From: a virus
IMG/VR virus record: IMGVR_UViG_3300021963_000040
Span: 62,001-126,000 of that record
Length of the DNA: 64,000 bases
Strand: one strand, 5' to 3'
A program made the translations under genes and the position numbers. The notes under the pieces were generated by a model. The model saw nothing but the letters and a program-made list of their open reading frames with translations. It did no database searches and had not been told where the DNA came from. Positions 23,354 through 62,472 of the stretch are shown here, piece after piece (the first letter of the stretch is position 1; the number at the start of each line of letters is the position of its first letter).

Positions 23354-23515
23354 ATGTATGAATACATAAAAATAATGTATTCTGACTGGATTTCATCGCA
23401 TCAGAATAATTTGCCTTCATCCCTTGATGAGTTTTGCAAGGCTGTTTCTGTTTTGCTTGCTAGGACAGAAGATGAAATACGGGAACATTGCATAAAACAA
23501 GGATGGTTCAAATGA
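23354..23515 (+). CDS. small hypothetical protein
   Basis: A 53-residue ORF (starts MYEYIKIMYSDW, ends KQGWFK). It overlaps the next small ORF by four bases (ATGA). It is acidic and helical, with a TAAATA motif just upstream. The tiling with its neighbours supports it as a real gene. Confidence 0.5.
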   Translation: MYEYIKIMYSDWISSHQNNLPSSLDEFCKAVSVLLARTEDEIREHCIKQGWFK

Positions 23516-23589
23516 CAGCAGTATTAGTTATTGGAGTCTTAGTATTTGGTATTGTATGGTACATAGACTATAAAAATATAATGAAATAA
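23512..23589 (+). CDS. 25-residue single-pass membrane peptide
   Basis: A very small ORF (MTAVLVIGVLVFGIVWYIDY...) that is almost entirely one membrane helix. Its start overlaps the upstream TGA and its stop overlaps the downstream ATG (TAATG), so it is embedded in a tight operon. Such phage micro-peptides can be lysis or membrane-remodelling factors; this is inference. Confidence 0.45.
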   Translation: MTAVLVIGVLVFGIVWYIDYKNIMK

Positions 23590-24173
23590 TGATAGTATAC
23601 ATTCACGGTGCAAATGCAACGGCTGGTAGTTTCACACACATAAGACAATACGTAAGAGATTATTTCGACGAGCCAGACGTAATGTTAGAATACAAAAGTG
23701 AAGATGGCTTTGATAACAATTTAAAAGAAATGAAGGGCCGGCTAGATGATGCTGACCGTTTATTTTTTATCAGTCATAGCCTGGGCGGGATCTACGCTCT
23801 ACATCTAGCCAATTATTATAACGAAACTACTGTTGGCGGTGTAAGTCTAAGCACACCATACGGAGGTAGCGCAGAAGCAGATTTCGCTCGTTACTTTTTA
23901 CCGTTCAACAGGTTAATGAAAGATGTTGGCACAATGAGTCAACCAATGGTTACCGCTAAAAAATTACCCGCACCACCAAATTGGACACAAGTGGTTACTA
24001 CAGTTGGCCAAAGTCCCTGGATAGTAGAAAAAAATGACGGGGTAGTAACATTAGAAAGTATGCGTTATAGAAAAGACTTTGAATTGGTAGAAATGCCGCT
24101 TAACCATTATGAAGTTGTTATAAGCGATCAAATAGTTGAATTAATATTGGATCGGATTAAACGTGCATTCTAA
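23589..24173 (+). CDS. alpha/beta hydrolase, lipase-like
   Basis: A 194-residue minimal alpha/beta hydrolase. An HG oxyanion segment (YIHGANAT) is followed by nucleophile S64 in SHSLGG, D150 in EKNDGVV and H173 in LNHYEV, a complete Ser-Asp-His triad. It has no signal peptide, so it probably acts in the cytoplasm on an ester or lipid. A second, unrelated-looking hydrolase lies at 58.3 kb. Confidence 0.82.
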   Translation: MIVYIHGANATAGSFTHIRQYVRDYFDEPDVMLEYKSEDGFDNNLKEMKGRLDDADRLFFISHSLGGIYALHLANYYNETTVGGVSLSTPYGGSAEADFARYFLPFNRLMKDVGTMSQPMVTAKKLPAPPNWTQVVTTVGQSPWIVEKNDGVVTLESMRYRKDFELVEMPLNHYEVVISDQIVELILDRIKRAF

Positions 24174-24177
24174 TAGG

Positions 24178-24206
24178 TTGACAACACCTGTAAATAAATA
24201 TATAAT
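24178..24206 (+). promoter_or_regulatory. sigma70-type promoter of the tmRNA unit
   Basis: TTGACA, a 17-base spacer and TATAAT. It drives the two small basic peptides and, by position, both tmRNA pieces down to the terminator at 24857. Confidence 0.85.
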
Positions 24207-24227
24207 ACGAACACAAAGGAGACAGTC

Positions 24228-24335
24228 ATGCCTAGTCCACGTAGAGTAAGTCAAATCCTAAAAGGTAAAAAACCACCTAAGCCAAAAACTGTAAAGCAAA
24301 TGGCCAAACGAGTTGTCCGTAGAAAGAGTAAATAA
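24228..24335 (+). CDS. 35-residue basic peptide
   Basis: MPSPRRVSQILKGKK... ends RRKSK. It has an SD (AAAGGAGAC) and lies directly downstream of a consensus promoter. It is Lys/Arg-rich, so it may bind RNA or ribosomes. The strong SD and tight packing support it being translated. Confidence 0.5.
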   Translation: MPSPRRVSQILKGKKPPKPKTVKQMAKRVVRRKSK

Positions 24336-24337
24336 TC

Positions 24338-24403
24338 ATGGCATACAGAGCAAAAACTAAAACTCAAGCCGCAGTTCGTAGACAACTACGTAAGCGTAAA
24401 TAA
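24338..24403 (+). CDS. 21-residue basic peptide
   Basis: MAYRAKTKTQAAVRRQLRKRK. It starts two bases after the preceding stop and ends exactly where the tmRNA acceptor piece begins. It could also be non-coding leader, but the composition resembles its neighbour. No SD is evident, so coupling is assumed. Confidence 0.38.
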   Translation: MAYRAKTKTQAAVRRQLRKRK

Positions 24404-24472
24404 TAAGAACAGCGTAAACTGTTATTAAGAAAAGTGTTCTGGACGCCGGTTCGACTCCGGCCAGGTCCACCA
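24404..24472 (+). ncRNA. ssrA: tmRNA acceptor piece (permuted, two-piece ssrA)
   Basis: This is the 3' half of a circularly permuted tmRNA. It ends with a five-pair T-arm (GCCGG, TTCGACT loop, CCGGC), then CAGGTCC, discriminator A and CCA. CAGGTCC pairs with GGGCCTG at the start of the coding piece (24676), with one G-U. Upstream, AGCGT, GTTATT and TGTTCTG pair with GCGCT, AATAAT and CAGGGCA of the coding piece, forming helix 2. The exact 5' end is set by processing and cannot be read here. Confidence 0.9.
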
Positions 24473-24483
24473 TAAGGGGAACT

Positions 24484-24663
24484 ATGAATACTGCTCTAGT
24501 TTGGGTTTTGTCGATTACTGTTTTAGGACCTGTTCCTGAACATAAAATATACGCCAAATATAAAACCAAACAAGAGTGTGAGCAAGCGTTAGAGCAATCT
24601 AAAGCAGAGTACAAGTTGCAGAAAAAGAATGTGTCTGCAACTTGTACTGTAACAATGAAATAG
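24484..24663 (+). CDS. small ORF inside the tmRNA intervening segment
   Basis: A 59-residue ORF lying wholly between the CCA of the acceptor piece and the 5' G of the coding piece. An AAGGGGA SD precedes the ATG. Residues 1-18 are hydrophobic (MNTALVWVLSITVLGPVP), resembling a signal or membrane segment; the rest is Lys/Glu-rich with two Cys (TKQECEQ, SATCTV), as in a small exported disulfide protein. It ends in TAG, one of only five visible TAG stops. Translation is likely but unproven. Confidence 0.55.
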   Translation: MNTALVWVLSITVLGPVPEHKIYAKYKTKQECEQALEQSKAEYKLQKKNVSATCTVTMK

Positions 24664-24675
24664 TATCCTTATGAT

Positions 24676-24856
24676 GGGCCTGCACTTGGTTTCGACAGGG
24701 CAAAGAGTAAGAATAATGGCGCTCGGGAATGTGAAACCCGTAGGATTGGGGTAACCCGGTCGAAGAAGCAAAAACGTAACTGCAAACGACGAACAGTTCG
24801 CATTAGCGGCCTAAACTCCGCTTAGGGTAGGAAATACCTCGTAACAGAAACAACCA
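24676..24856 (+). ncRNA. ssrA: tmRNA coding piece with ANDEQFALAA tag
   Basis: The 5' part of the tmRNA begins GGGCCTG and includes a D-loop-like GGTTTCGACAGG. It carries the tag frame at 24782-24811: resume codon GCA, then AAC GAC GAA CAG TTC GCA TTA GCG GCC, TAA. The encoded tag ANDEQFALAA (after the Ala charged on tmRNA) ends in the LAA signal recognised by ClpXP. A GGGTA/TACCT hairpin follows the tag. Ribosome rescue is the established role; the two-piece architecture is inferred from matching acceptor and helix-2 strands 200 bases upstream. Confidence 0.95.
24782..24814 (+). other. ssrA: ssrA proteolysis-tag reading frame
   Basis: Ten codons from the resume GCA to GCC, plus a TAA stop, encode ANDEQFALAA. 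The C-terminal LAA is the ClpX-binding degron, and the inner residues ANDEQ resemble the SspB/ClpA-contacting part of bacterial tags. Confidence 0.95.
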
Positions 24857-24881
24857 ATGCCCGCTTCGGCGGGCATTTTTT
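24857..24881 (+). terminator. intrinsic terminator of tmRNA
   Basis: ATGCCCGC, a TTCG tetraloop and GCGGGCAT are followed by a T-run. Confidence 0.95.
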
Positions 24882-25006
24882 TGGTTAATTTGTTCAAAAA
24901 ACTGTTATTTTTCAATGGTTACTATTGTATAAATGTGGTTACGTACTATATACTATGTATTCGGTGTAACAGCCGGTATACAAATCTTAATATTAAGGAA
25001 AAATAA

Positions 25007-25543
25007 ATGAAGAAACTTTTAGCAATTTTAGCTATGGCATTCGCCTCTTCTGCTTTTGCAGTTAACTACGTATCTGTTGATGTTGACAGCGTTAAGGGCC
25101 TAAATGGCGCTTCTGACAGCACCGCACAATACGTTCGTGCAGGAACAGAAATTGGTGGTATTCAATGGGGCTTACAAAGCCGTACTGCTCGCGTTGAAGG
25201 CGGCGGCCTATTGAACAGCCTAGAGGTAACTGGCGGTAAGGCAATTGGTGCGATCACTCCATTCGTTGGCGTTGGTCATGACAATGGCTTCAACGGTTCT
25301 ACTCCATATAACTATGGTTTAGTTGGCGCAACTGCTGGTGCGAAAATGGGTCCTGGTTTTGCATTGGCTGGTGTTAAAGCTCGAGTTGGTTCTACAGAAA
25401 CCAACATGACACATCAGACTGTTGTTTTTGGTACTTATTCTTTACCGATGACAAAAACAGTTAGTTTGAACTTTAACGCAAGCAAGTCCTACCGAGACAT
25501 TAAAGAAAATGCTTTTGGTCTAGGTCTAGGTTTTAGCTTCTAA
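25007..25543 (+). CDS. secreted outer-membrane beta-barrel-like protein
   Basis: A 178-residue protein with a clear signal peptide (MKKLLAILAMAFASSAFA, cleavage near 18). The rest is Gly-rich with alternating strands and a C-terminal LGLGLGFSF that ends in Phe, the usual signature for BAM-inserted outer-membrane proteins. It has its own SD (TAAGGAAA) and terminator. Phage-encoded outer-membrane proteins can block receptors against competing phages (superinfection exclusion); that role is inferred. Confidence 0.75.
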   Translation: MKKLLAILAMAFASSAFAVNYVSVDVDSVKGLNGASDSTAQYVRAGTEIGGIQWGLQSRTARVEGGGLLNSLEVTGGKAIGAITPFVGVGHDNGFNGSTPYNYGLVGATAGAKMGPGFALAGVKARVGSTETNMTHQTVVFGTYSLPMTKTVSLNFNASKSYRDIKENAFGLGLGFSF

Positions 25544-25563
25544 TTTAGACGTTAAACTTAATA

Positions 25564-25588
25564 AAAGGGCCTTAGGGCCCTTTTTATT
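25564..25588 (+). terminator. intrinsic terminator
   Basis: AAAGGGCC and GGCCCTTT form a short-loop stem followed by T-rich DNA, closing the outer-membrane-protein transcript. Confidence 0.9.
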
Positions 25589-25654
25589 TGTGATCTAGAT
25601 ATTAAATATTTTTGCTCGTGTTATATACACACATTCACACACAAGGAGAAAAAT

Positions 25655-25882
25655 ATGAGCAAAACACCTTACGAGATTCGTCTCGAACTTTTGAAAATGG
25701 CTAACGAAATCCTCGCAACGCCAATCTTCCAATCTCGCGATGCGAAGTTACAAGAATATCATTCTAAGTTAACAGATACTAATCGTGATTCTTTGGCATT
25801 TCCAACTTTACCAGATTTTCCGTCTAGCACAGATATTGTTGCTAAAGCCGAAGAACTGAAAAAGTTTGTCGATATGGCATAA
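25655..25882 (+). CDS. small protein, YEIRLELLKMA family
   Basis: A 75-residue protein with YEIRLELLKMANEIL at the N-terminus and KAEELKKFVD at the end. A paralogue at 45043 has YEIRLELLKMAKDFL and KATELNKFVN. The two probably form short helical proteins of one family, known only as unknowns in T4-like phages. The SD is AAGGAGAA. Confidence 0.7.
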   Translation: MSKTPYEIRLELLKMANEILATPIFQSRDAKLQEYHSKLTDTNRDSLAFPTLPDFPSSTDIVAKAEELKKFVDMA

Positions 25883-25890
25883 TGAACATA

Positions 25891-25917
25891 TAGAGACTTG
25901 ACAGTCTCTATATTTTT
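25891..25917 (+). terminator. intrinsic terminator whose loop holds a -35 box
   Basis: TAGAGACT, TGAC loop and AGTCTCTA form a perfect 8-bp stem followed by TATTTTT. The -35 TTGACA of the tRNA promoter spans the loop and adjoining stem bases. Confidence 0.8.
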
Positions 25918-25926
25918 ACATACAAT
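25898..25926 (+). promoter_or_regulatory. sigma70-type promoter of the tRNA transcript
   Basis: TTGACA, a 17-base spacer and TACAAT. The -35 is embedded in the terminator hairpin of the preceding gene. Confidence 0.82.
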
Positions 25927-25979
25927 ATAGACATGGTTTGGTAGTTTCCCATCATGGACCCCTCCAAAAAACTACCAAT

Positions 25980-26055
25980 GCGTCTGTAGCTAAGTGGAAC
26001 AGCAGAAGCCTCTAAAACTTCAGAAGCGTGGGTTCGATTCCCACCAGACGCACCA
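25980..26055 (+). tRNA. tRNA with CUA anticodon, amber suppressor-like
   Basis: A 76-base cloverleaf with acceptor GCGTCTG/CAGACGC, D-arm GCT/AGC, T-arm GTGGG/CCCAC, discriminator A and an encoded CCA. The anticodon arm is GAAGC, loop CTCTAAA, ACTTC; loop positions 34-36 are CTA, which reads UAG. The loop is the same as that of the E. coli supF suppressor. The short variable loop excludes Leu, Ser and Tyr types; amino-acid identity is not clear. Pair 31-39 is a C-A mismatch. Its relevance is strengthened by the gene at 29437 with an in-frame UAG. Confidence 0.88.
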
Positions 26056-26072
26056 ATTTAAAGGTAGTGCAT

Positions 26073-26303
26073 ATGGATATGGACAATGCGGCAGTATTTT
26101 TAGGTGGTACAATCTTGTATGCACTAGCATGTATTATAATTTTAATAGCGATAGTTATAGCAAATAATATTATACACAAGTACTGGAAATCATTTGGATG
26201 GAAGTTAACCCCTGCTTATTGGGACCATCCTACCCCTCAATTTATGACCAAAGAGGAAGCAGAAAAAATTGCTCCTCACTTAGAAGCAGAAAGTAAAAAA
26301 TGA
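26073..26303 (+). CDS. small membrane protein
   Basis: A 76-residue protein from ATG 26073; the longer frame from 26028 runs back into the tRNA and is rejected. One hydrophobic helix lies at about 7-33 (VFLGGTILYALACIIILIAIVIANNII). A cytoplasmic tail with WKLTPAYWDHPTPQF and an acidic end follows. The SD is TAAAGGTAG. Function unknown. Confidence 0.6.
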   Translation: MDMDNAAVFLGGTILYALACIIILIAIVIANNIIHKYWKSFGWKLTPAYWDHPTPQFMTKEEAEKIAPHLEAESKK

Positions 26304-26461
26304 CTATACGAGAACTAATGGTTGAATACATTCTGTTTGCATTTACAGAGGAAGAACTGTTAACAAAGTTTCATGTGTCCGAGGAAGAACTTCCTGGCCT
26401 TGCAGATGTTGATCTATTAGAAATTTATGATCAAACATTATTGACCCCAATAGAACAATAG
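26300..26461 (+). CDS. small acidic protein
   Basis: A 53-residue ORF in ATGA overlap with the membrane protein. It is acidic and helical (FTEEELLTKFHVSEEELPGL reads like a short HTH-like or coiled unit). It ends in TAG, and read-through would run into the Pho box, so TAG is a true stop here. Confidence 0.5.
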   Translation: MTIRELMVEYILFAFTEEELLTKFHVSEEELPGLADVDLLEIYDQTLLTPIEQ

Positions 26462-26498
26462 TACAGAATGCGGTACTGCATTAGAAATATTCGCATAA

Positions 26499-26527
26499 CT
26501 GTAATCGAATTGTAATCTTCTTTTAAT
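26499..26527 (+). promoter_or_regulatory. Pho box upstream of pstS
   Basis: CTGTAAT, TTGTAAT and TTTTAAT recur at exact 11-base intervals (26499, 26510, 26521), the spacing of PhoB-binding 7-mers. This implies induction by the host PhoR/PhoB system under phosphate starvation. PhoB control of phage pstS is established for marine cyanophages. Confidence 0.85.
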
Positions 26528-26577
26528 TAAATAGATTGTGCAATCGCACAATCACTTAACCCTTAAGGAGATTACAA

Positions 26578-27561
26578 GTGAAAAAATTATTCGTGACACT
26601 ACTGGCGGCTTTGGCCGTTTCAGCACAAGCACAGCAAATAGCCGGTGCAGGAGCAACATTTCCTGCTCCGGTTTATTCTAAGTGGGCTTCAGAATACCAC
26701 AAAGAAACTAAAGTACAAATCAACTACGGCCCATTAGGTTCTGCAGGCGGTATCAAACAATTAGAAGCTAATACAGTTAGCTTTGGCGCCACTGACGATC
26801 CTATGAGCGTAGAAGATCTTAACAAGAGAGGGTGGCATCAGTTTCCTGCAGTCATAGGCGGGGTGGTACTGGTTGTTAACCTTAAAGGATTCCAACCCGG
26901 AGAAATCGTTCTTGACGGACAGACAGTAGCAGACATCTATGAAGGCAAAATTCTAAATTGGAACGATCCTAAGATTGCAAAACTTAATCCTAAATTAAAA
27001 TTACCAGACCAACCTATCACTGCGGTAATTAGAGCAGACGGATCTGGAACTACTGCGGTGTTTACAGACTACTTGTCACAGGTCAGCAAGAGTTTTAAAG
27101 AAAGCACTGGTGTAGGTAAGATGGTTAGTTGGAAACTAAAGCAAGTCAGTGCAGGTAAAGGTAACGCAGGTGTTGCCGCAATGGTACAGAACATGAACGG
27201 TGCCATTGGTTATGTTGAATATGCCTTTGCCAAACAAGGTAAGATGACACACGTAGCAATGTTAAACAAAGGCAAAGTCATACAGCCCGACGACTTAACA
27301 TTCAAACAAGCCACAAGTTCTGCTAATTGGAACACTCCAGGAATGGCTGTAAACTTAACCAACAAGGATGGTTGGCCAATCACAGCCGCTACCTTTGTGT
27401 TAGTATACAAAGAAGGCAATGCCAAGACACAGGATGTATTAAAATTCTTTGACTGGGCATTTACCAAAGGCGACAAGATGGCAGAAGACCTAGACTATGT
27501 ACCTTTACCTGACAAAGTAAAAGCACAGATCCGAGCAGACTGGGCAAAGAACATCAAATAG
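26578..27561 (+). CDS. pstS: periplasmic phosphate-binding protein PstS
   Basis: A 327-residue phosphate-binding lipid-free periplasmic protein. A signal peptide (MKKLFVTLLAALAVSAQA) precedes the diagnostic GAGATFPAPVYSKW. The phosphate-contact segments LGSAGG, RADGSGT and GKGNAGVA are all present. It would load phosphate onto the host PstCAB transporter during infection. The start is GTG with an AAGGAGAT SD. A Pho box lies upstream. The stop is TAG and overlaps a convergent small gene. Confidence 0.97.
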   Translation: MKKLFVTLLAALAVSAQAQQIAGAGATFPAPVYSKWASEYHKETKVQINYGPLGSAGGIKQLEANTVSFGATDDPMSVEDLNKRGWHQFPAVIGGVVLVVNLKGFQPGEIVLDGQTVADIYEGKILNWNDPKIAKLNPKLKLPDQPITAVIRADGSGTTAVFTDYLSQVSKSFKESTGVGKMVSWKLKQVSAGKGNAGVAAMVQNMNGAIGYVEYAFAKQGKMTHVAMLNKGKVIQPDDLTFKQATSSANWNTPGMAVNLTNKDGWPITAATFVLVYKEGNAKTQDVLKFFDWAFTKGDKMAEDLDYVPLPDKVKAQIRADWAKNIK

Positions 27562-27730
27562 TCCTACCCCACTCTACTTTCATCCATAGTCTTTCGTGAA
27601 AATAATAGGCAACCAATAATATAAGTTGGATGCCTATTGCTATTTTTAAACCTACTATAGGTATTGTTATTGCTAATGCTATTAATCTGAATGTGATTGC
27701 TCTTATAATTGTACGTGTTTTTGTTTCCAT
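27554..27730 (-). CDS. DUF2061-like small membrane protein
   Basis: A 58-residue minus-strand ORF, starting METKTRTIIRAITFRLIALAI and containing YYFHERLWMKVEWG. The KaitfR...YYfHERlW.ki.WG pattern is the signature of DUF2061 membrane proteins, which have two short helices. It lies downstream of terC on the same strand beyond a terminator and overlaps the end of pstS by 8 bases, convergently. Function unknown. Confidence 0.75.
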   Translation of the reverse strand: METKTRTIIRAITFRLIALAITIPIVGLKIAIGIQLILLVAYYFHERLWMKVEWGRTI

Positions 27731-27744
27731 CTATACTCCAAAAT

Positions 27745-27768
27745 AAAAGCCCCTTGCGGGGCTTTTTT
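27745..27768. terminator. bidirectional intrinsic terminator
   Basis: AAAAGCCCC, a four-base loop and GGGGCTTTT, with T-runs on both strands. It ends terC on the minus strand and stops plus-strand read-through from pstS. Confidence 0.9.
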
Positions 27769-28441
27769 AATTTTTCTTTCTTATTTCTGTTCGGTAATAC
27801 TGTTTAGCAGTAAGAATGACAGCGCCTATAAACGGCAATATCTTTTCAACAAAATCGTGTAACGGATCGTTCCACTTGTCAATGAATGGTTCGTGTACTA
27901 TCATATTTCCTGCAATGTAATATAAAACAAATGCGCCTACATAAATCGCGCTGGGATATTTATCAAGTATACTTGAAACTAGCGTACTTCCGAACAAGAT
28001 GATAGGAACGCTAATCAACAAACCGGCAATGATTAAAATCCAGTTACCGCTGGCCGCACCTGCGATAGCTAGAGCATTATCTAGGCCCATAACAGCATCT
28101 GCCATAACGATTGTACCCATTGCTCCCCAGAATGTTGTAGCGGCTTTGACATTGCTGTGATCGTTGTTGTTTGAAGTTAACTTCCATGCAATATAGACTA
28201 GCATAAGTCCGCCTACTAAACGTAGTCCAGGAATCATTAACAGATAGGTTAATGCGGCAACACAGGCAAAGCGTACACCTACAGCACCAAATGTTCCCCA
28301 TAACATGGCTCGCTTGCGTAAATGTTCTGGTAGTTGTTTAGACGCCATTGCTATAACTAGTGCGTTTTCACCGCCTAATACAACGTCTATTAAGATAATG
28401 GCCAACAAGGCCCACAAGAATTGAATCGAGAGTAGTTCCAT
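27767..28441 (-). CDS. TerC/Alx-family membrane protein
   Basis: A 224-residue integral membrane protein with about seven hydrophobic helices. The two acidic repeats typical of the family are DVVLGGENALVIAMA (about 20-34) and DAVMGLDNALAIAGA (about 115-129). TerC/Alx proteins are linked to manganese export and tellurite resistance. An AAGGAAA SD precedes the ATG, and a yybP-ykoY-type riboswitch forms the leader. This combination is normal in bacteria and unusual in a phage. Confidence 0.92.
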   Translation of the reverse strand: MELLSIQFLWALLAIILIDVVLGGENALVIAMASKQLPEHLRKRAMLWGTFGAVGVRFACVAALTYLLMIPGLRLVGGLMLVYIAWKLTSNNNDHSNVKAATTFWGAMGTIVMADAVMGLDNALAIAGAASGNWILIIAGLLISVPIILFGSTLVSSILDKYPSAIYVGAFVLYYIAGNMIVHEPFIDKWNDPLHDFVEKILPFIGAVILTAKQYYRTEIRKKN

Positions 28442-28459
28442 TTTAGTTTCCTTTAAAAT

Positions 28460-28537
28460 GGTCTCGTCTCTTTGTCCATATACCGGGCTAGGCCGTATTG
28501 ACGATATATGGAGCCTTTGCAGGCTAACTACTCCCCG
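28460..28537 (-). promoter_or_regulatory. yybP-ykoY-type manganese riboswitch candidate
   Basis: Read on the minus strand, the terC leader begins GGGGAGTAG, contains two hairpin-forming segments, and ends GAGACGAGACC just before the SD. These are the two conserved strands of the yybP-ykoY metal-binding site, whose known ligand is Mn2+. Position directly upstream of a TerC/Alx gene matches known examples. A covariance-model match (RF00080) would confirm it. Confidence 0.8.
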
Positions 28538-28540
28538 AGA

Positions 28541-28557
28541 GTATTTATACTAAATAC
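28541..28557. promoter_or_regulatory. palindromic TAAATA element between divergent units
   Basis: GTATTTA, TAC and TAAATAC form a perfect 7-bp inverted repeat between riboswitch-terC (minus) and the 28561 gene (plus). Each strand carries a TAAATA late-promoter core, so it could fire both ways. Confidence 0.42.
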
Positions 28558-28560
28558 CAG

Positions 28561-29205
28561 ATGAGGGGCCGAATTGCATTATTTTTACATCAACCATATT
28601 GCTCCGTGCAAAGCGGAAATGGTATTATGCAAGCGTTAGGCGACCATTACAATTTTAAAATTTTTACCCGCCATGATCTAGAGCGGGATTTTTTTGACAA
28701 TGTAGATATGATTTGCTTTCCGGGCGGCCTTGGAGATGCTAGTAATTTTAATTATCTCACAAAAGAACATAAAACTAGGATAAAAAACTTTGTTCGTAAT
28801 GGCGGGGCATATTTAGGAATATGTATGGGTGCATATTGGGCAGGCTCGGAATATTTTAATCTATTACACAATGTCAACGCAGTTCAATATCTTACACGCC
28901 CAGGAACCGATACTCGTCGCCCTCATGCTAAAAATTTAGAAGTTACTTGGAACGGGAAACAAGAAAAAATGTTTTGGTATGACGGATGCGCCTTAGTAGG
29001 AGATGAGTCAAAATTTAAAACTGTTGCCCGTTATGCTAACGGTGATCCAATGGCAATAATACAAGGTCGAGTAGGTCTAATAGGATGCCATCCCGAAAGC
29101 GAGCAACATTGGTATGATATGTACAGCTGGATGAAAGGTAAATTTCATCAAGGGCGTCATTACCCGTTGCTTTTAGATTTTGTAGACAGTATACTTAAGG
29201 TATGA
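28561..29205 (+). CDS. class I glutamine amidotransferase-like protein (BPL_N type)
   Basis: A 214-residue GATase-fold protein. Nucleophile C88 lies in GGAYLGICMGAYWAG, with H177 and E179 in GCHPESEQHW, completing a Cys-His-Glu triad. FPGGLGDAS precedes it. The closest family I recognise is the N-terminal domain found with biotin-protein ligases. The ATG lies four bases after a TAAATA motif, so the message may be leaderless; an AUU at 28573 behind GAGGGG is a weaker alternative start. Confidence 0.75.
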   Translation: MRGRIALFLHQPYCSVQSGNGIMQALGDHYNFKIFTRHDLERDFFDNVDMICFPGGLGDASNFNYLTKEHKTRIKNFVRNGGAYLGICMGAYWAGSEYFNLLHNVNAVQYLTRPGTDTRRPHAKNLEVTWNGKQEKMFWYDGCALVGDESKFKTVARYANGDPMAIIQGRVGLIGCHPESEQHWYDMYSWMKGKFHQGRHYPLLLDFVDSILKV

Positions 29206-29435
29206 GCAATCTTAAAGACTACTTTGACAAGCAAGAAAGATATCAGCCTAAGTGGGAATATGGTACTCGCGTGTTTGGGCACTGGAACAAGATTCCTTTT
29301 ATCGGAATGGTTATTGCTGACAGAGAAAAAGATTATATCTTAGTACAAACAGACTTGCCTATAAAACTGAAAGACAATATACATAATATTGTGATCGTTA
29401 AACACAAAGACATTAAACCACTAAAGGAGTATTGA
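29202..29435 (+). CDS. small beta-rich hypothetical protein
   Basis: A 77-residue protein in ATGA overlap with the GATase gene. KWEYGTRVFGHWNKIPFIGMVIAD reads like a small SH3-like barrel. It is followed by the amber-containing gene, whose SD lies inside the end of this gene. Confidence 0.65.
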   Translation: MSNLKDYFDKQERYQPKWEYGTRVFGHWNKIPFIGMVIADREKDYILVQTDLPIKLKDNIHNIVIVKHKDIKPLKEY

Positions 29436-29436
29436 T

Positions 29437-30015
29437 ATGTCATAGATTGAAATTGCATGTGAAGACCTAGTTTTTCACTTTAACAAAAAGCACTTGGAAG
29501 ATCCTACAATTCCAATGTGGGTGCTTAAAACACATGGTGAATCCTACTACGTACATCACGTAGATAGCACATTACCGTGGACCACAAAAGAAACTCCCGA
29601 CAACCCTCATACTAAAGGTAGCTTAAAGTTTAAGCGATGTTTGCTCACAATTGATGCGGACAATACAGCTAAAATCGAAAAGCTAACCATCTACGATAAA
29701 ATCCGCTTACGTAACCAAAAGCTAGGCATTACTCGTATCATGTGGACTAGCCATCAGTTCGAGTTAGCTCTTAAGGAAGAAGGTATCAAACATAGTCCGT
29801 TCAAACGCATTCACGGTGCCTGTAGTACAGCTTATACAGTATGTGATTTACACGACAAACATGATGCAATGATGTTGGGGCTAAAATATCCTGGTAAGTT
29901 TAGAGTTCTTATGCCAAACGAGCCACAGTACCGTGCTTATGACGATAAAAAGTTATGGGAAAAGTTACAGACTGAGTATAACGAGTGGCCTGAGGACGAA
30001 GATGATGACGAGTAA
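29437..30015 (+). CDS. hypothetical protein with in-frame UAG as third codon
   Basis: Reading from ATG 29437 gives Met-Ser-UAG-Ile-Glu-Ile-Ala-Cys-Glu-Asp-Leu, then an open frame to TAA at 30015 (192 codons before the stop). An AAGGAG SD lies at ideal spacing before this ATG. The 16 codons after the UAG look coding and continue into a well-formed protein (HFNKKHLEDPTIPMWVLK). The next in-frame ATG lies about 75 bases further on and has no SD. Synthesis would need UAG read-through, which the tRNA(CUA) at 25980 could supply; a CAG-to-TAG mutation or an assembly error is the alternative. The protein itself is of unknown function with an acidic C-terminus. Confidence 0.72.
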
Positions 30016-30029
30016 TGTTACCAAATAGG

Positions 30030-30057
30030 TTGCAAAATTATTAAAACGTCTTATAAT
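30030..30057 (+). promoter_or_regulatory. candidate sigma70-type promoter
   Basis: TTGCAA, a 16-base spacer and TATAAT, 60 bases before the 30118 gene. Confidence 0.5.
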
Positions 30058-30117
30058 AGAATGTGATAGACCACTAAATAAAGCATACGATTGCTCTAAG
30101 TTAATACTCTAAACTAT

Positions 30118-30474
30118 ATGACTGATATTTTTGACTGCCTAAACTGTGGAAGGGAGAATCCTGTAAAAGGTGCAAACTACACAAACAAGTATTGCAACAA
30201 CCATTGCCAACAGCAACACAGGAAAAAACTTCTAACGGAAAAACGCATCCAAGAATGGAAGTCGAGTTGTGGATTGTATGTATGGAAAGAAGTTCCTGAT
30301 TACATCCAAGACTATTTAATTAAAGAACGTGGACACAAGTGCGAAGTATGCGGCATCACTGAATGGCAAGGTCACCCTGCGCCATTGACGGTAACGCAAA
30401 AGGATCGCGACACGTACAATAATGTTGAGAGTAACTTAGAAGTCATTTGCTATAACTGCTTATCGCAAAAATAA
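30118..30474 (+). CDS. HNH-like zinc-finger protein lacking the catalytic His
   Basis: A 118-residue protein with two Cys pairs near the N-terminus (CLNC, later CNNHC) and a C-terminal HNH-like unit CEVCG ... NLEVICYNCLSQK. In active HNH enzymes the segment before the second Cys pair carries a D-H-(I/L)-D/N-G motif. Here it reads VTQKDRDTYNN with no His, so nuclease activity is doubtful and a DNA-binding role is more likely. Confidence 0.72.
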   Translation: MTDIFDCLNCGRENPVKGANYTNKYCNNHCQQQHRKKLLTEKRIQEWKSSCGLYVWKEVPDYIQDYLIKERGHKCEVCGITEWQGHPAPLTVTQKDRDTYNNVESNLEVICYNCLSQK

Positions 30475-30501
30475 TTTCATTTTAACACAAGGAGAACTTA
30501 A

Positions 30502-31041
30502 ATGAAAACCGTAGGTAATAAATTGGATTCGTTCGTCATCACTGGCGTTAAGCCAGGACAACCAGAAGATGCGTTCTTCGACATCACCGAGGAATCATTC
30601 CCTGGCAAGTGGAAAGTAATTGTTTACTATCCAAAGGACTTTACATTTGTATGTCCTACAGAAATCGTAGCATACGACAAGTTAGCACAAGACTTTGCTG
30701 ACCGTGACGCAGTATTGCTAACTGGTTCAACAGACAACGAGTTCTGTAAAGTGGCTTGGCAAAAGGCTCACCCGGATCTACAAAAGATCACTCACACACA
30801 ATTTGCTGACACACAGCGTGGTGAGAAAAGCCTAATTGAGCAACTAGGGGTATTCTATGCTCCAGCAGGCGCGGCTCTTCGTGCAACTTTCATTGTTGAT
30901 CCTAACAACGAAATCCAGCACGTTACAGTCAACAACTTGAACGTTGGTCGTAGCCCAGAAGAAACACTTCGTGTTCTTGATGCGCTACAAACTGGCGAAC
31001 TATGTGCTTGTAACCGTACAGTAGGCGGCGAGACACTATAA
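30502..31041 (+). CDS. ahpC: typical 2-Cys peroxiredoxin, AhpC-like
   Basis: A 179-residue peroxiredoxin that reduces hydrogen peroxide and organic peroxides. The peroxidatic site is FTFVCPTE with C51, and the resolving Cys is in GELCACNR (C168, with an extra C170). The length matches AhpC. Its stop overlaps the ATG of the next gene (TAATG), and an AhpD homologue follows, forming a complete peroxide-defence cassette. The SD is AAGGAGAA. Confidence 0.95.
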   Translation: MKTVGNKLDSFVITGVKPGQPEDAFFDITEESFPGKWKVIVYYPKDFTFVCPTEIVAYDKLAQDFADRDAVLLTGSTDNEFCKVAWQKAHPDLQKITHTQFADTQRGEKSLIEQLGVFYAPAGAALRATFIVDPNNEIQHVTVNNLNVGRSPEETLRVLDALQTGELCACNRTVGGETL

Positions 31042-31664
31042 TGTTAGAAACCATCTGCGAAACAATGGTAGATGCATATCGTCGTAACTGGATTACTAGT
31101 CGCGACGGTAACGTTAGCATACGCCACCACGATCGTGATCATTTTTATATCACACCTAGTGGTGTGCGTAAGCAGACACTTCAGCCAGATCAATTTAAAA
31201 AGATTGGTATTTCTAATGATGGGTCTTACTGGACGGATTTGAAGTATACAGACATCAGTAGCAACTTGAACCCCAGCGGAGAGATTCCCTTACACTTTGG
31301 TCTACAACGAGCAATGGGTCAACATAGCAATGATGTACGTGTAGTCATGCACTTTCATCCAACGTATTGTGTTGCGGCCATGCACGCCGGGATAGATCTA
31401 AGCACTATTGTTAATGACTTTCCTGAGCTAAGTCGTTACACTAAAGTGGCACCAAATGTACCCGACGTTCCACCTATCAGTCAAGAGCTTGCAGATTGTT
31501 GTCATGAGAATCTACAGTTAGACGACTTGGGCAATATTGCTTATGATATAGTAGGAATTAAAGGGCACGGTGTTGTTGCCATTGATACTAGTCCATGGCG
31601 AGCGTTTGAACATATCGAACGTCTAGAACATATTTGTAAAATTGTATTAGCATCAAGGAGATAA
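31041..31664 (+). CDS. class II aldolase/adducin-domain protein
   Basis: A 207-residue metal-dependent aldolase-fold protein. Zn ligands H104 and H106 lie in MHFHPTY, with H176 in KGHGVVA, and a conserved Glu81 in PSGEIPLH. This is the layout of fuculose-phosphate aldolase and methylthioribulose-phosphate dehydratase relatives; the substrate cannot be told. It is translationally coupled to ahpC and three bases before ahpD, so a role linked to carbonyl or sugar-phosphate damage is possible. Confidence 0.88.
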   Translation: MLETICETMVDAYRRNWITSRDGNVSIRHHDRDHFYITPSGVRKQTLQPDQFKKIGISNDGSYWTDLKYTDISSNLNPSGEIPLHFGLQRAMGQHSNDVRVVMHFHPTYCVAAMHAGIDLSTIVNDFPELSRYTKVAPNVPDVPPISQELADCCHENLQLDDLGNIAYDIVGIKGHGVVAIDTSPWRAFEHIERLEHICKIVLASRR

Positions 31665-31666
31665 GA

Positions 31667-32173
31667 ATGAGTTTTATTGAAACAGTAAAAGGGGCATTGC
31701 CCGACTATGCAAAAGATACAAGATTAAATCTTGATGCTGTTCTTTTGCGTAGTACATTAGATGCTGATGTAGCTATTGGTTGTGCTGTAGCCGCACTAGC
31801 CGCAACAGGCAATGGCAAAGTATTAAGTATCTTGTTAGCAGATGCTCCTGTACATGCAGAGTCAGCAATGACAGCCGCAAGTATCATGGCACAAAACAAC
31901 GTTTGGTATCCATATGTTGAGATGGCAGATGATGAACAGCTAAAAGGATTGCCAGCACAGCTACGCATGAACGCTATCGCGAGTCACGGCGGAACTACCA
32001 AGGCAAACTTTGAAGCATTTAGTCTTGCCGCAAGTATTGTAGGCAAATGTCATTTCTGCGTTAAGGCACACTATGACACACTCAAGAAGGAAGGCTACAC
32101 CGTAGAACAACTTCGAGACATTGGTCGTATTGCCGCAGTAATGAATAGTGTTGCTAAAGTATTAAACAGTTAA
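31667..32173 (+). CDS. ahpD: AhpD-like alkylhydroperoxidase
   Basis: A 168-residue helical protein with the CxxC-xxx-H active site (C128, C131, H135 in KCHFCVKAH). AhpD reduces peroxides and can recycle AhpC through its CxxC. It has an SD (AAGGAGAT) overlapping the aldolase end and is the last gene of a three-gene operon, closed by the terminator at 32203. Confidence 0.92.
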   Translation: MSFIETVKGALPDYAKDTRLNLDAVLLRSTLDADVAIGCAVAALAATGNGKVLSILLADAPVHAESAMTAASIMAQNNVWYPYVEMADDEQLKGLPAQLRMNAIASHGGTTKANFEAFSLAASIVGKCHFCVKAHYDTLKKEGYTVEQLRDIGRIAAVMNSVAKVLNS

Positions 32174-61344: not shown

Positions 61345-62472
61345 ATGCGAGTTCTTACTTTGACATTGATTTGTATTGCCTTGAGTACCGGGGCAGGAGC
61401 AAGTCCTGTAGGCAAAGTAACTGAACAAACAAATGCTATTTCTAATATTATTAGAGAAAAACAAACGTTGTCTGCTCCTAAAGGAACAGGCGTTGAAATG
61501 AATGATGCTATCAAAACAGCACAGGGTAAAGTTGGTATTACATTTGAAGATGATACAAAAGTTCAGATCACTGAAAATAGCAAATTAATAATAGATGACT
61601 TTGTATATGACCCAAAAAGTAAAAGCGGGGGCAAGTTGGCCGTTAAAGTAGCATTAGGAACAGTACGTTATGCTTCAGGACAGATCGCTAAAACTAATCC
61701 GCAAAGTGTTGCTGTCAATACGCCTACTGCTACTATTGGGGTACGTGGGACTGATTTTACGGCTACTGTGGACGAAGTAGGGGCTAGCACAATTATTTTG
61801 TTACCTAGTTGTCCCGACAATTATAGAAACAAAATAGGATTTGATATTGCCAAAGATTGTAAAACAGGAACTATTGAAGTCAGCACTGACGTGGGTACTG
61901 TTATTTTAAATCAACCATTTCAGGCAACAAAGGTATCCAGCAGAAGTGCGCCTCCTCCTGCTCCAGTTTTATTAAAGTTAACCGAAGATGCAATTGGTAA
62001 CATTCTTATTTTAGCACCACCTAAAGAATTCAAGCAAGAACAGCATCAAACTAAAATAGATATGCGAGGAGCACTAGATGTAGACTTTCTTAAAGAAACA
62101 GGACTGGTAAACATATTAGATAAACAAAGCGCAGAAATATTTCAGGACAGCTTATCTCGTAACTTTTTAGACAATACATTTTTATTGAACATTTTAGATA
62201 TTGTCAACGCACAATTAGCGGCCCAGCTAGATTTACTCAATAGCACTAAGAGTGGACTATTACCAGACTATTTTGCATTAAGCGGTATTATTGCTACAGT
62301 TGACGAAGGCAGTTCAGTCACTCTCAGTAGAGACGATGGTAGCAACGTAATGAGCGTTACAGTTCCATATCATCAAAATAGTTTGATAATTATGAATCAA
62401 GCCAACATGGAATTTAAGAATAGAGTTAATACAGGGAATACTAGTACAACTATTAGTATAACACAAAAATGA
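61345..62472 (+). CDS. FecR-domain secreted protein
   Basis: A 375-residue protein with a signal peptide (ends GAGA). A FecR domain spans about 35-150: VGITFEDDTKVQITENSKLIIDDFVYDP, VALGTVRYASG and the signature TPTATIGVRGTDF. In bacteria FecR-domain proteins are periplasmic signalling or surface-matrix proteins. The C-terminal half is of unknown fold. It lies between two curlin genes and overlaps the second by ATGA. Confidence 0.82.
   Translation: MRVLTLTLICIALSTGAGASPVGKVTEQTNAISNIIREKQTLSAPKGTGVEMNDAIKTAQGKVGITFEDDTKVQITENSKLIIDDFVYDPKSKSGGKLAVKVALGTVRYASGQIAKTNPQSVAVNTPTATIGVRGTDFTATVDEVGASTIILLPSCPDNYRNKIGFDIAKDCKTGTIEVSTDVGTVILNQPFQATKVSSRSAPPPAPVLLKLTEDAIGNILILAPPKEFKQEQHQTKIDMRGALDVDFLKETGLVNILDKQSAEIFQDSLSRNFLDNTFLLNILDIVNAQLAAQLDLLNSTKSGLLPDYFALSGIIATVDEGSSVTLSRDDGSNVMSVTVPYHQNSLIIMNQANMEFKNRVNTGNTSTTISITQK

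Follow-up and report, generated by a model that had tools for sequence, protein, structure and literature searches.

How can a gene be expressed if its third codon is a stop, and what might a phage gain from keeping it that way? The question is raised by a locus in a 134,798-base virus record (IMG/VR IMGVR_UViG_3300021963_000040), of which positions 62,001 to 126,000, a stretch of 64,000 nucleotides, were analysed here as the window. An initial annotation of this locus proposed that the gene is opened by a suppressor tRNA. Comparison of sequences supports that proposal: the TAG is conserved, a tRNA with the anticodon CUA is found alongside it, and in phage Atu_ph07 a TGA at the corresponding place is paired with the anticodon UCA. 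We consider it very likely that the early stop and its matching suppressor tRNA form a conserved gate on expression, and, as far as sequence can tell, the same arrangement is kept in many related and unrelated phages.

Layout of the gene and its product

The layout first described for the gene was borne out, with ATG at 29437, TCA, TAG at 29443-29445, 189 further codons and TAA at 30013-30015. The features of the locus are:

24380..24905, + strand: permuted tmRNA (ARAGORN; Rfam tmRNA_permuted, 114.7 bits), a candidate link to the gate
25980..26055, + strand: suppressor tRNA with anticodon CUA at 26012-26014, G1-C72, A73 and an encoded CCA (ARAGORN; Rfam tRNA, 61 bits)
29423..29429, + strand: Shine-Dalgarno (SD) sequence AAAGGAG, spaced 7 nt from the ATG; an SD lies ahead of the ATG in 80/80 homologous loci
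29437..29445, + strand: ATG TCA TAG, that is start, single sense codon and putative gating stop (codon 3); TAG kept in 80/80 loci
29437..30015, + strand: entire putatively gated gene of the VFHFNKK family, with 189 codons after the TAG and a TAA stop (homologues, AF2 model)
29446..29682, + strand: N-terminal beta domain, residues 1-79, which of all parts of the family is found most widely (alignment and AF2 model)
29683..29982, + strand: C-terminal ferredoxin-like alpha/beta domain, residues 80-179 (AF2 model; weak ACT/RRM-type matches)

The CUA tRNA that had been noted 3.4 kb upstream of the gene was also called by ARAGORN. No tRNA was found in the rest of the 134,798-base record outside the window, and an Rfam scan of positions 23500-30300 for ribozymes and riboswitches beside the tRNA returned the permuted tmRNA and the tRNA, all other matches being below threshold. 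The genes surrounding the gated gene in the window (26578-32173) are of metabolic type: PstS-like, TerC, AhpC/TSA, class II aldolase and CMD.

Directly after the TAG the codons are ATT GAA, in the same frame as those before it, and the earliest in-frame ATG, GTG or TTG past the stop is TTG 29494, 16 codons downstream of the TAG. These 16 codons had been thought to look coding, and across loci their variation is indeed nearly confined to third positions: the commonest base has a frequency of 0.958, 0.958 and 0.674 at positions 1, 2 and 3, respectively (51 distinct segments). Variation at third positions and hardly any at first and second positions indicates that the segment is translated as protein.

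The window protein contains the core of a family that we define here and call VFHFNKK (IE..C..VVFHFNKK.LED...PMW...G..Y.V.H.....TKET..N..TKG); the 58 sequences in the family alignment are 53-72% identical to it. The N-terminal domain stands alone in RHph_I1_18 and in Paenibacillus prophages and is fused in Phosso and Atu_ph07. The AF2 model of the window protein has a mean pLDDT of 87.9 and a pTM of 0.68, and its C-terminal domain gives weak matches (Z up to 6.3, VIA-align) to ACT/RRM-type structures, which are common ferredoxin-like folds. The protein matched nothing in PHROGs, Pfam or NCBIfam, no relative was found by sequence among solved structures, and Foldseek gave no significant match in the PDB and one clear relative, from an uncultured phage, in BFVD. 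Pfam PTH2 (PF01981) gave no match in the gated gene of the window or anywhere else in the record; gated Pth2-like genes are found only in relatives.

Conservation of the early TAG

We scanned the whole 134.8-kb record for a mechanical pattern consisting of an SD, a start codon (ATG or GTG), at most 11 codons, a stop and an open frame of at least 70 codons. This search of other genes, which the initial annotation had suggested, covers early stops only and gave one TAG and three TAA cases that are not overlapped. The layout in a single genome is therefore not above chance and proves nothing.

Conservation among homologues, in contrast, puts the layout beyond chance. From 243 relatives in viral contigs 80 were kept, representing 57 distinct proteins, and all 80 loci have an in-frame TAG, never TAA or TGA, between the SD-ATG and the conserved N-terminus. 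The same 80 genes end in TAA (45) or TGA (35) and never in TAG. The early TAG is codon 3 in most homologues and codon 4, 5 or 10 in others. We looked for the outcome that had been named as fatal to the proposal, namely that every homologue starts downstream, and did not see it. For genes of this kind, with a conserved early in-frame stop after an SD-supported ATG (80/80 here) and a suppressor tRNA of matching anticodon in that genome (here the CUA tRNA at 25980-26055), we propose the name suppressor-gated genes.

A wider set, which excludes five duplicates (L131, L132, L135, L141, L144) and one fragment (L156), is TAG-gated at 136/160 loci, counting the window and close relatives. This figure comes from a script and two hand corrections, the removal of a false positive (L157) and the addition of a false negative (L100), which leave the script's total at 136. 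A generic scan of the window and the loci for early-stop genes that are not overlapped found 139 with TAG, 4 with TAA and none with TGA. Since 133 of the 139 belong to the family by which the loci were chosen, and the other six include a member of the same family that the pattern had missed (L076), little of this count is independent of the choice of loci.

In two loci an additional gene, which we take from its motif to be a GIY-YIG-type endonuclease, opens with ATG GCA TAG as the gated family does (L127 from 3119, L128 from 5327). One gene has an early TAA (ATG GAT TAA ATG) in L051 from 2263 and in L052 and L053 from 3998, and probably has an ordinary start at the next ATG.

The accompanying suppressor tRNA

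ARAGORN found a CUA tRNA at 117/164 loci, and a covariance model that we built from 38 CUA tRNAs recovered further copies that it had missed. Our own CUA tRNA scan gave 105/165 loci, on the + strand throughout, and none in reversed control sequence (2.27 Mb). A CUA tRNA accompanies the early TAG at 122/136 gated loci. Over 99 loci with an ARAGORN CUA tRNA the median distance is 393 nt, and in 93 of them the tRNA lies upstream. Nine of the 14 gated loci without a CUA tRNA include less than 0.9 kb of sequence ahead of the gene, and a 5'-cut tRNA is visible in L012. The exceptions are five loci (L017, L021, L100, L123 and L124, the last two resembling each other) in which no CUA tRNA was found despite 1.8 to 8 kb of upstream sequence.

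The pair G1-C72 and the base A73 are invariant in the 38 aligned CUA tRNAs (38/38), a combination that we presume from identity rules to be ill-suited to glutaminyl-tRNA synthetase. The idea that codon 3 stands for glutamine, through a change of CAG to TAG, did not hold: the homologues keep TAG, and G1-C72 and A73 argue against glutamine. Permuted tmRNAs are frequent near the gated genes of homologous loci, lying a few hundred bases away in several.

The proposed gate in an upstream Pth2-like gene

We inspected 22 loci whose homologue lacks the early TAG. In 16 of them an early TAG, at codons 3 to 8, is found instead in the Pth2-like gene upstream, and in two, both from Atu_ph07, that gene has an early TGA; the remaining four are Paenibacillus prophages with neither gate nor CUA tRNA. 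A CUA tRNA occurs in 14 of the 16 loci with a gated upstream Pth2-like gene, none being found in L154 and L155. Atu_ph07 carries a UCA tRNA, cognate to its TGA, and the available part of the report on this phage notes it as an opal suppressor (PMC6102473). The type of stop thus appears, from these sequences, to match the suppressor anticodon (TAG with CUA, TGA with UCA), the second pairing coming from one phage. Pfam PTH2 scores above its cut-off in L143, L145, L155, L164, XacN1, Phosso and Atu_ph07, whereas in L126, GAP32 and Arash it is below the cut-off or absent and the gene is called Pth2-like by motif and, for GAP32 and Arash, also by its match to XacN1.

Isolated and uncultured phages

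Thirteen isolated phages fit the proposed gate: Atu_ph07 (TGA/UCA) and twelve with an early TAG and a CUA tRNA (Phosso, RHph_I1_18, XacN1, RAS14, Arash, ME3, GAP32, Kaldavass, CBB, BF, XbC2 and pT24). The gated gene of RHph_I1_18 is absent from the non-overlapped output of the mechanical scan, so the scan overlooks some true cases. In XacN1, which has two CUA tRNAs, the sole early-TAG gene that is not overlapped is HD-Pth2 (Pfam PTH2); the XacN1 report, in the part available, locates no target for these two suppressor tRNAs (PMC5852040). Uncultured huge-phage records show an early TAG in the Pth2-like gene in 3/3 cases and a CUA tRNA within the stretch read in 2/3. In existing annotation the genes of GAP32, CBB, BF, XbC2, Kaldavass and Phosso are in pieces or have an internal start.

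In GAP32, CBB, BF, XbC2 and Kaldavass the gene after Pth2, which has no Pfam match and which we assume from its motif to be HD-like, contains a second in-frame TAG ('ELDTG*GD'; L290-L292, L295, L296); Arash and ME3 have valine at this place. The Arash tRNA (L288 3816-3890) is annotated as tRNA-Phe, its anticodon being CUA by ARAGORN.

Exceptions

A blind prediction made for DLP_5 from its orphan CUA tRNA failed, as no early-TAG gene of at least 70 codons that is not overlapped was found there. Just upstream of this tRNA (L371, about 1830-1860) lies SD-ATG AAG TAG followed by five sense codons and TAA, a short ORF that is perhaps a leader peptide. In phiM12, which has Pth2 genes and an ochre suppressor tRNA with anticodon UUA (L269, record 106714-106789), neither a Pth2 gene with an early stop nor another target of the tRNA was found. 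The Pth2 genes of Baka and Sandalphon have no internal stop in the matched frame, and in RaK2 a TAG lies upstream in the Pth2-like frame with no start seen ahead of it. In five mycobacteriophages (L347-L349, L368, L369) Pth2 is preceded by ATG- or GTG-TAG-GTG, and a CUA tRNA adjoins it in three of the five (ARAGORN). Since the GTG that follows the TAG is in a good position of its own, it may be an ordinary start, and no gate is needed.

Proposed mechanism and alternative explanations

In the gate that we propose, the ribosome would start at ATG 29437 and encounter UAG as the third codon. Where release factor 1 (RF1) wins, only a dipeptide would be made; if the CUA tRNA wins, an amino acid would be inserted and the remaining 189 codons translated. 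The gene would stay off as long as charged suppressor tRNA of the phage is missing, output would track the ratio of tRNA to RF1, and with the stop so early, termination would cost just one short peptide. From sequence we infer all of this, including charging of the tRNA, readthrough, silence without the tRNA, the function of the product and the purpose of the gate. The gated gene would be the leading one of a small module, coding for the VFHFNKK protein, a Pth2-like peptidyl-tRNA hydrolase or HD-Pth2. The probable role of this module is in tRNA care or ribosome rescue, with tRNA or stalled translation as its target, since each gated gene either is Pth2-like or comes from a family that in other phages neighbours Pth2-like genes, and tmRNAs lie near many of the loci. 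TAG also ends other genes of the window phage, for example the PstS-like gene (26578-27561), so the CUA tRNA should cause some unwanted readthrough. There is perhaps an even chance that the suppressor tRNA is kept mainly for the one early stop on a tRNA-care or rescue operon, which would explain many orphan suppressor tRNAs; on that same reading the operon would sense the balance between termination and suppression, and stop and anticodon could change in step (TAG/CUA to TGA/UCA).

An in-frame stop would ordinarily point to a sequencing error or a pseudogene, and the homologues have already refuted both: the TAG recurs at 136/160 loci, in many assemblies and in isolated phages, with the remaining frame conserved, which leaves next to no probability for such an artefact. 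Alternatively, ATG-X-TAG might be a tiny regulatory ORF, with the protein starting at the next codon or farther down and no readthrough. AUU is a rare start codon, as in infC, the codon after the TAG is ATT, ATC or ATA at 120/136 loci, and a Paenibacillus homologue has ATG at roughly the place of the TAG. However, the TAG is followed by ACT, AAA, GTA, GTC, GTT, AAC or TTT at 16/136 loci, and it lies at varying distances from the ATG, to which the SD keeps; restarting at AUU was rejected as the main reading on these grounds. Such a restart, which also leaves the exclusive use of TAG, the CUA tRNA and the pairing of TGA with a UCA tRNA unexplained, seems to us very improbable. General recoding (code 15), in which the phage would translate TAG in many genes, the gated one among them, we likewise regard as very improbable. 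CUA tRNAs are the usual companions of code 15 in jumbo phages according to the accessible part of one account (PMC13037316), and a second TAG occurs in the HD gene of GAP32, CBB, BF, XbC2 and Kaldavass and in the Pth2 gene of LR756501. Yet the scan of early stops found only one early-TAG gene that is not overlapped in the 134.8-kb record, and 5/86 mechanical ORFs, the PstS-like gene among them, end in TAG, so that neither many genes with an early in-frame TAG nor a lack of TAG terminators was found.

Two further possibilities concern what the gate is for, and we hold them about equally likely. The gate might increase the supply of rescue factors when RF1 or recycling runs short, as the prfB frameshift does for RF2 and nonstop arfA mRNA for ArfA. 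Pth2-like genes are common among those gated, and permuted tmRNAs are frequently close by; in the portions of the literature available, the premature stop of prfB is likewise matched to the factor that it encodes (PMC12421855), and Pth2 has been proposed to rescue jammed ribosomes in jumbo phages (PMC7824862). Against such sensing, the window phage has no Pth2 match, and the stop in Atu_ph07 is TGA, which is read by RF2, so that it is the tRNA, and no single release factor, that the gate tracks; we entertain the possibility tentatively. Equally tentative is the idea that the gate sets timing or dose, the product being harmful early in infection and delayed by the tRNA; the initial annotation had already suggested that the protein is made only once the tRNA has built up. 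Suppressor tRNAs have been proposed, in what is available of a study of gut phages, to turn on recoded lysis and structural genes (PMC10879173). Here, however, the tRNA often lies close to the gene and on its strand, so that one transcript may carry both.

Relation to known systems

Phage suppressor tRNAs, code-15 recoding, prfB and jumbo-phage Pth2 are all known. The proposed gate resembles code 15 (crAss-like, Lak and jumbo phages) in that a phage CUA tRNA would read UAG where the host uses UAG as a stop, but it differs in involving one start-proximal stop and one module, in that TAG still terminates other genes and in that TGA/UCA is possible. With prfB (RF2) it shares an early in-frame stop that gates a translation factor, the type of stop being set by its reader. 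As described in the available part of the source, prfB uses a programmed frameshift at an early TGA, never TAG, and no special tRNA (PMC12421855). The window gene, in contrast, has TAG and a dedicated tRNA, and its frame, like that of its homologues, is unshifted across the stop, with no +1 frameshift of the prfB type. Jumbo-phage Pth2, for which a role in rescue or tRNA care has been proposed, belongs to the same enzyme family as the gated relatives, and the accessible sections of that account make no mention of in-frame stops or suppressor tRNAs (PMC7824862). Orphan suppressor tRNAs of the same kind appear in the available parts of reports on XacN1 (PMC5852040), RsoM2USA (PMC8504454), Summit (PMC9022506) and Atu_ph07 (PMC6102473), and that on Summit likewise gives no target (PMC9022506). 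We propose targets for the tRNAs of XacN1 and Atu_ph07 and none for that of DLP_5, a relative of Summit. A literature search over mostly open-access papers found no text that ties an early stop in a Pth2 gene to a phage suppressor tRNA, and none that describes a start-proximal stop and its own suppressor tRNA as a gate on a single module.

Gene callers split or shorten gated genes. The proposed gate offers a concrete target for many phage suppressor tRNAs, and the match between stop and anticodon is testable in laboratory hosts. If the gate is real, a dedicated tRNA and a stop codon would form a switch for single genes, outside reassignment of the genetic code.
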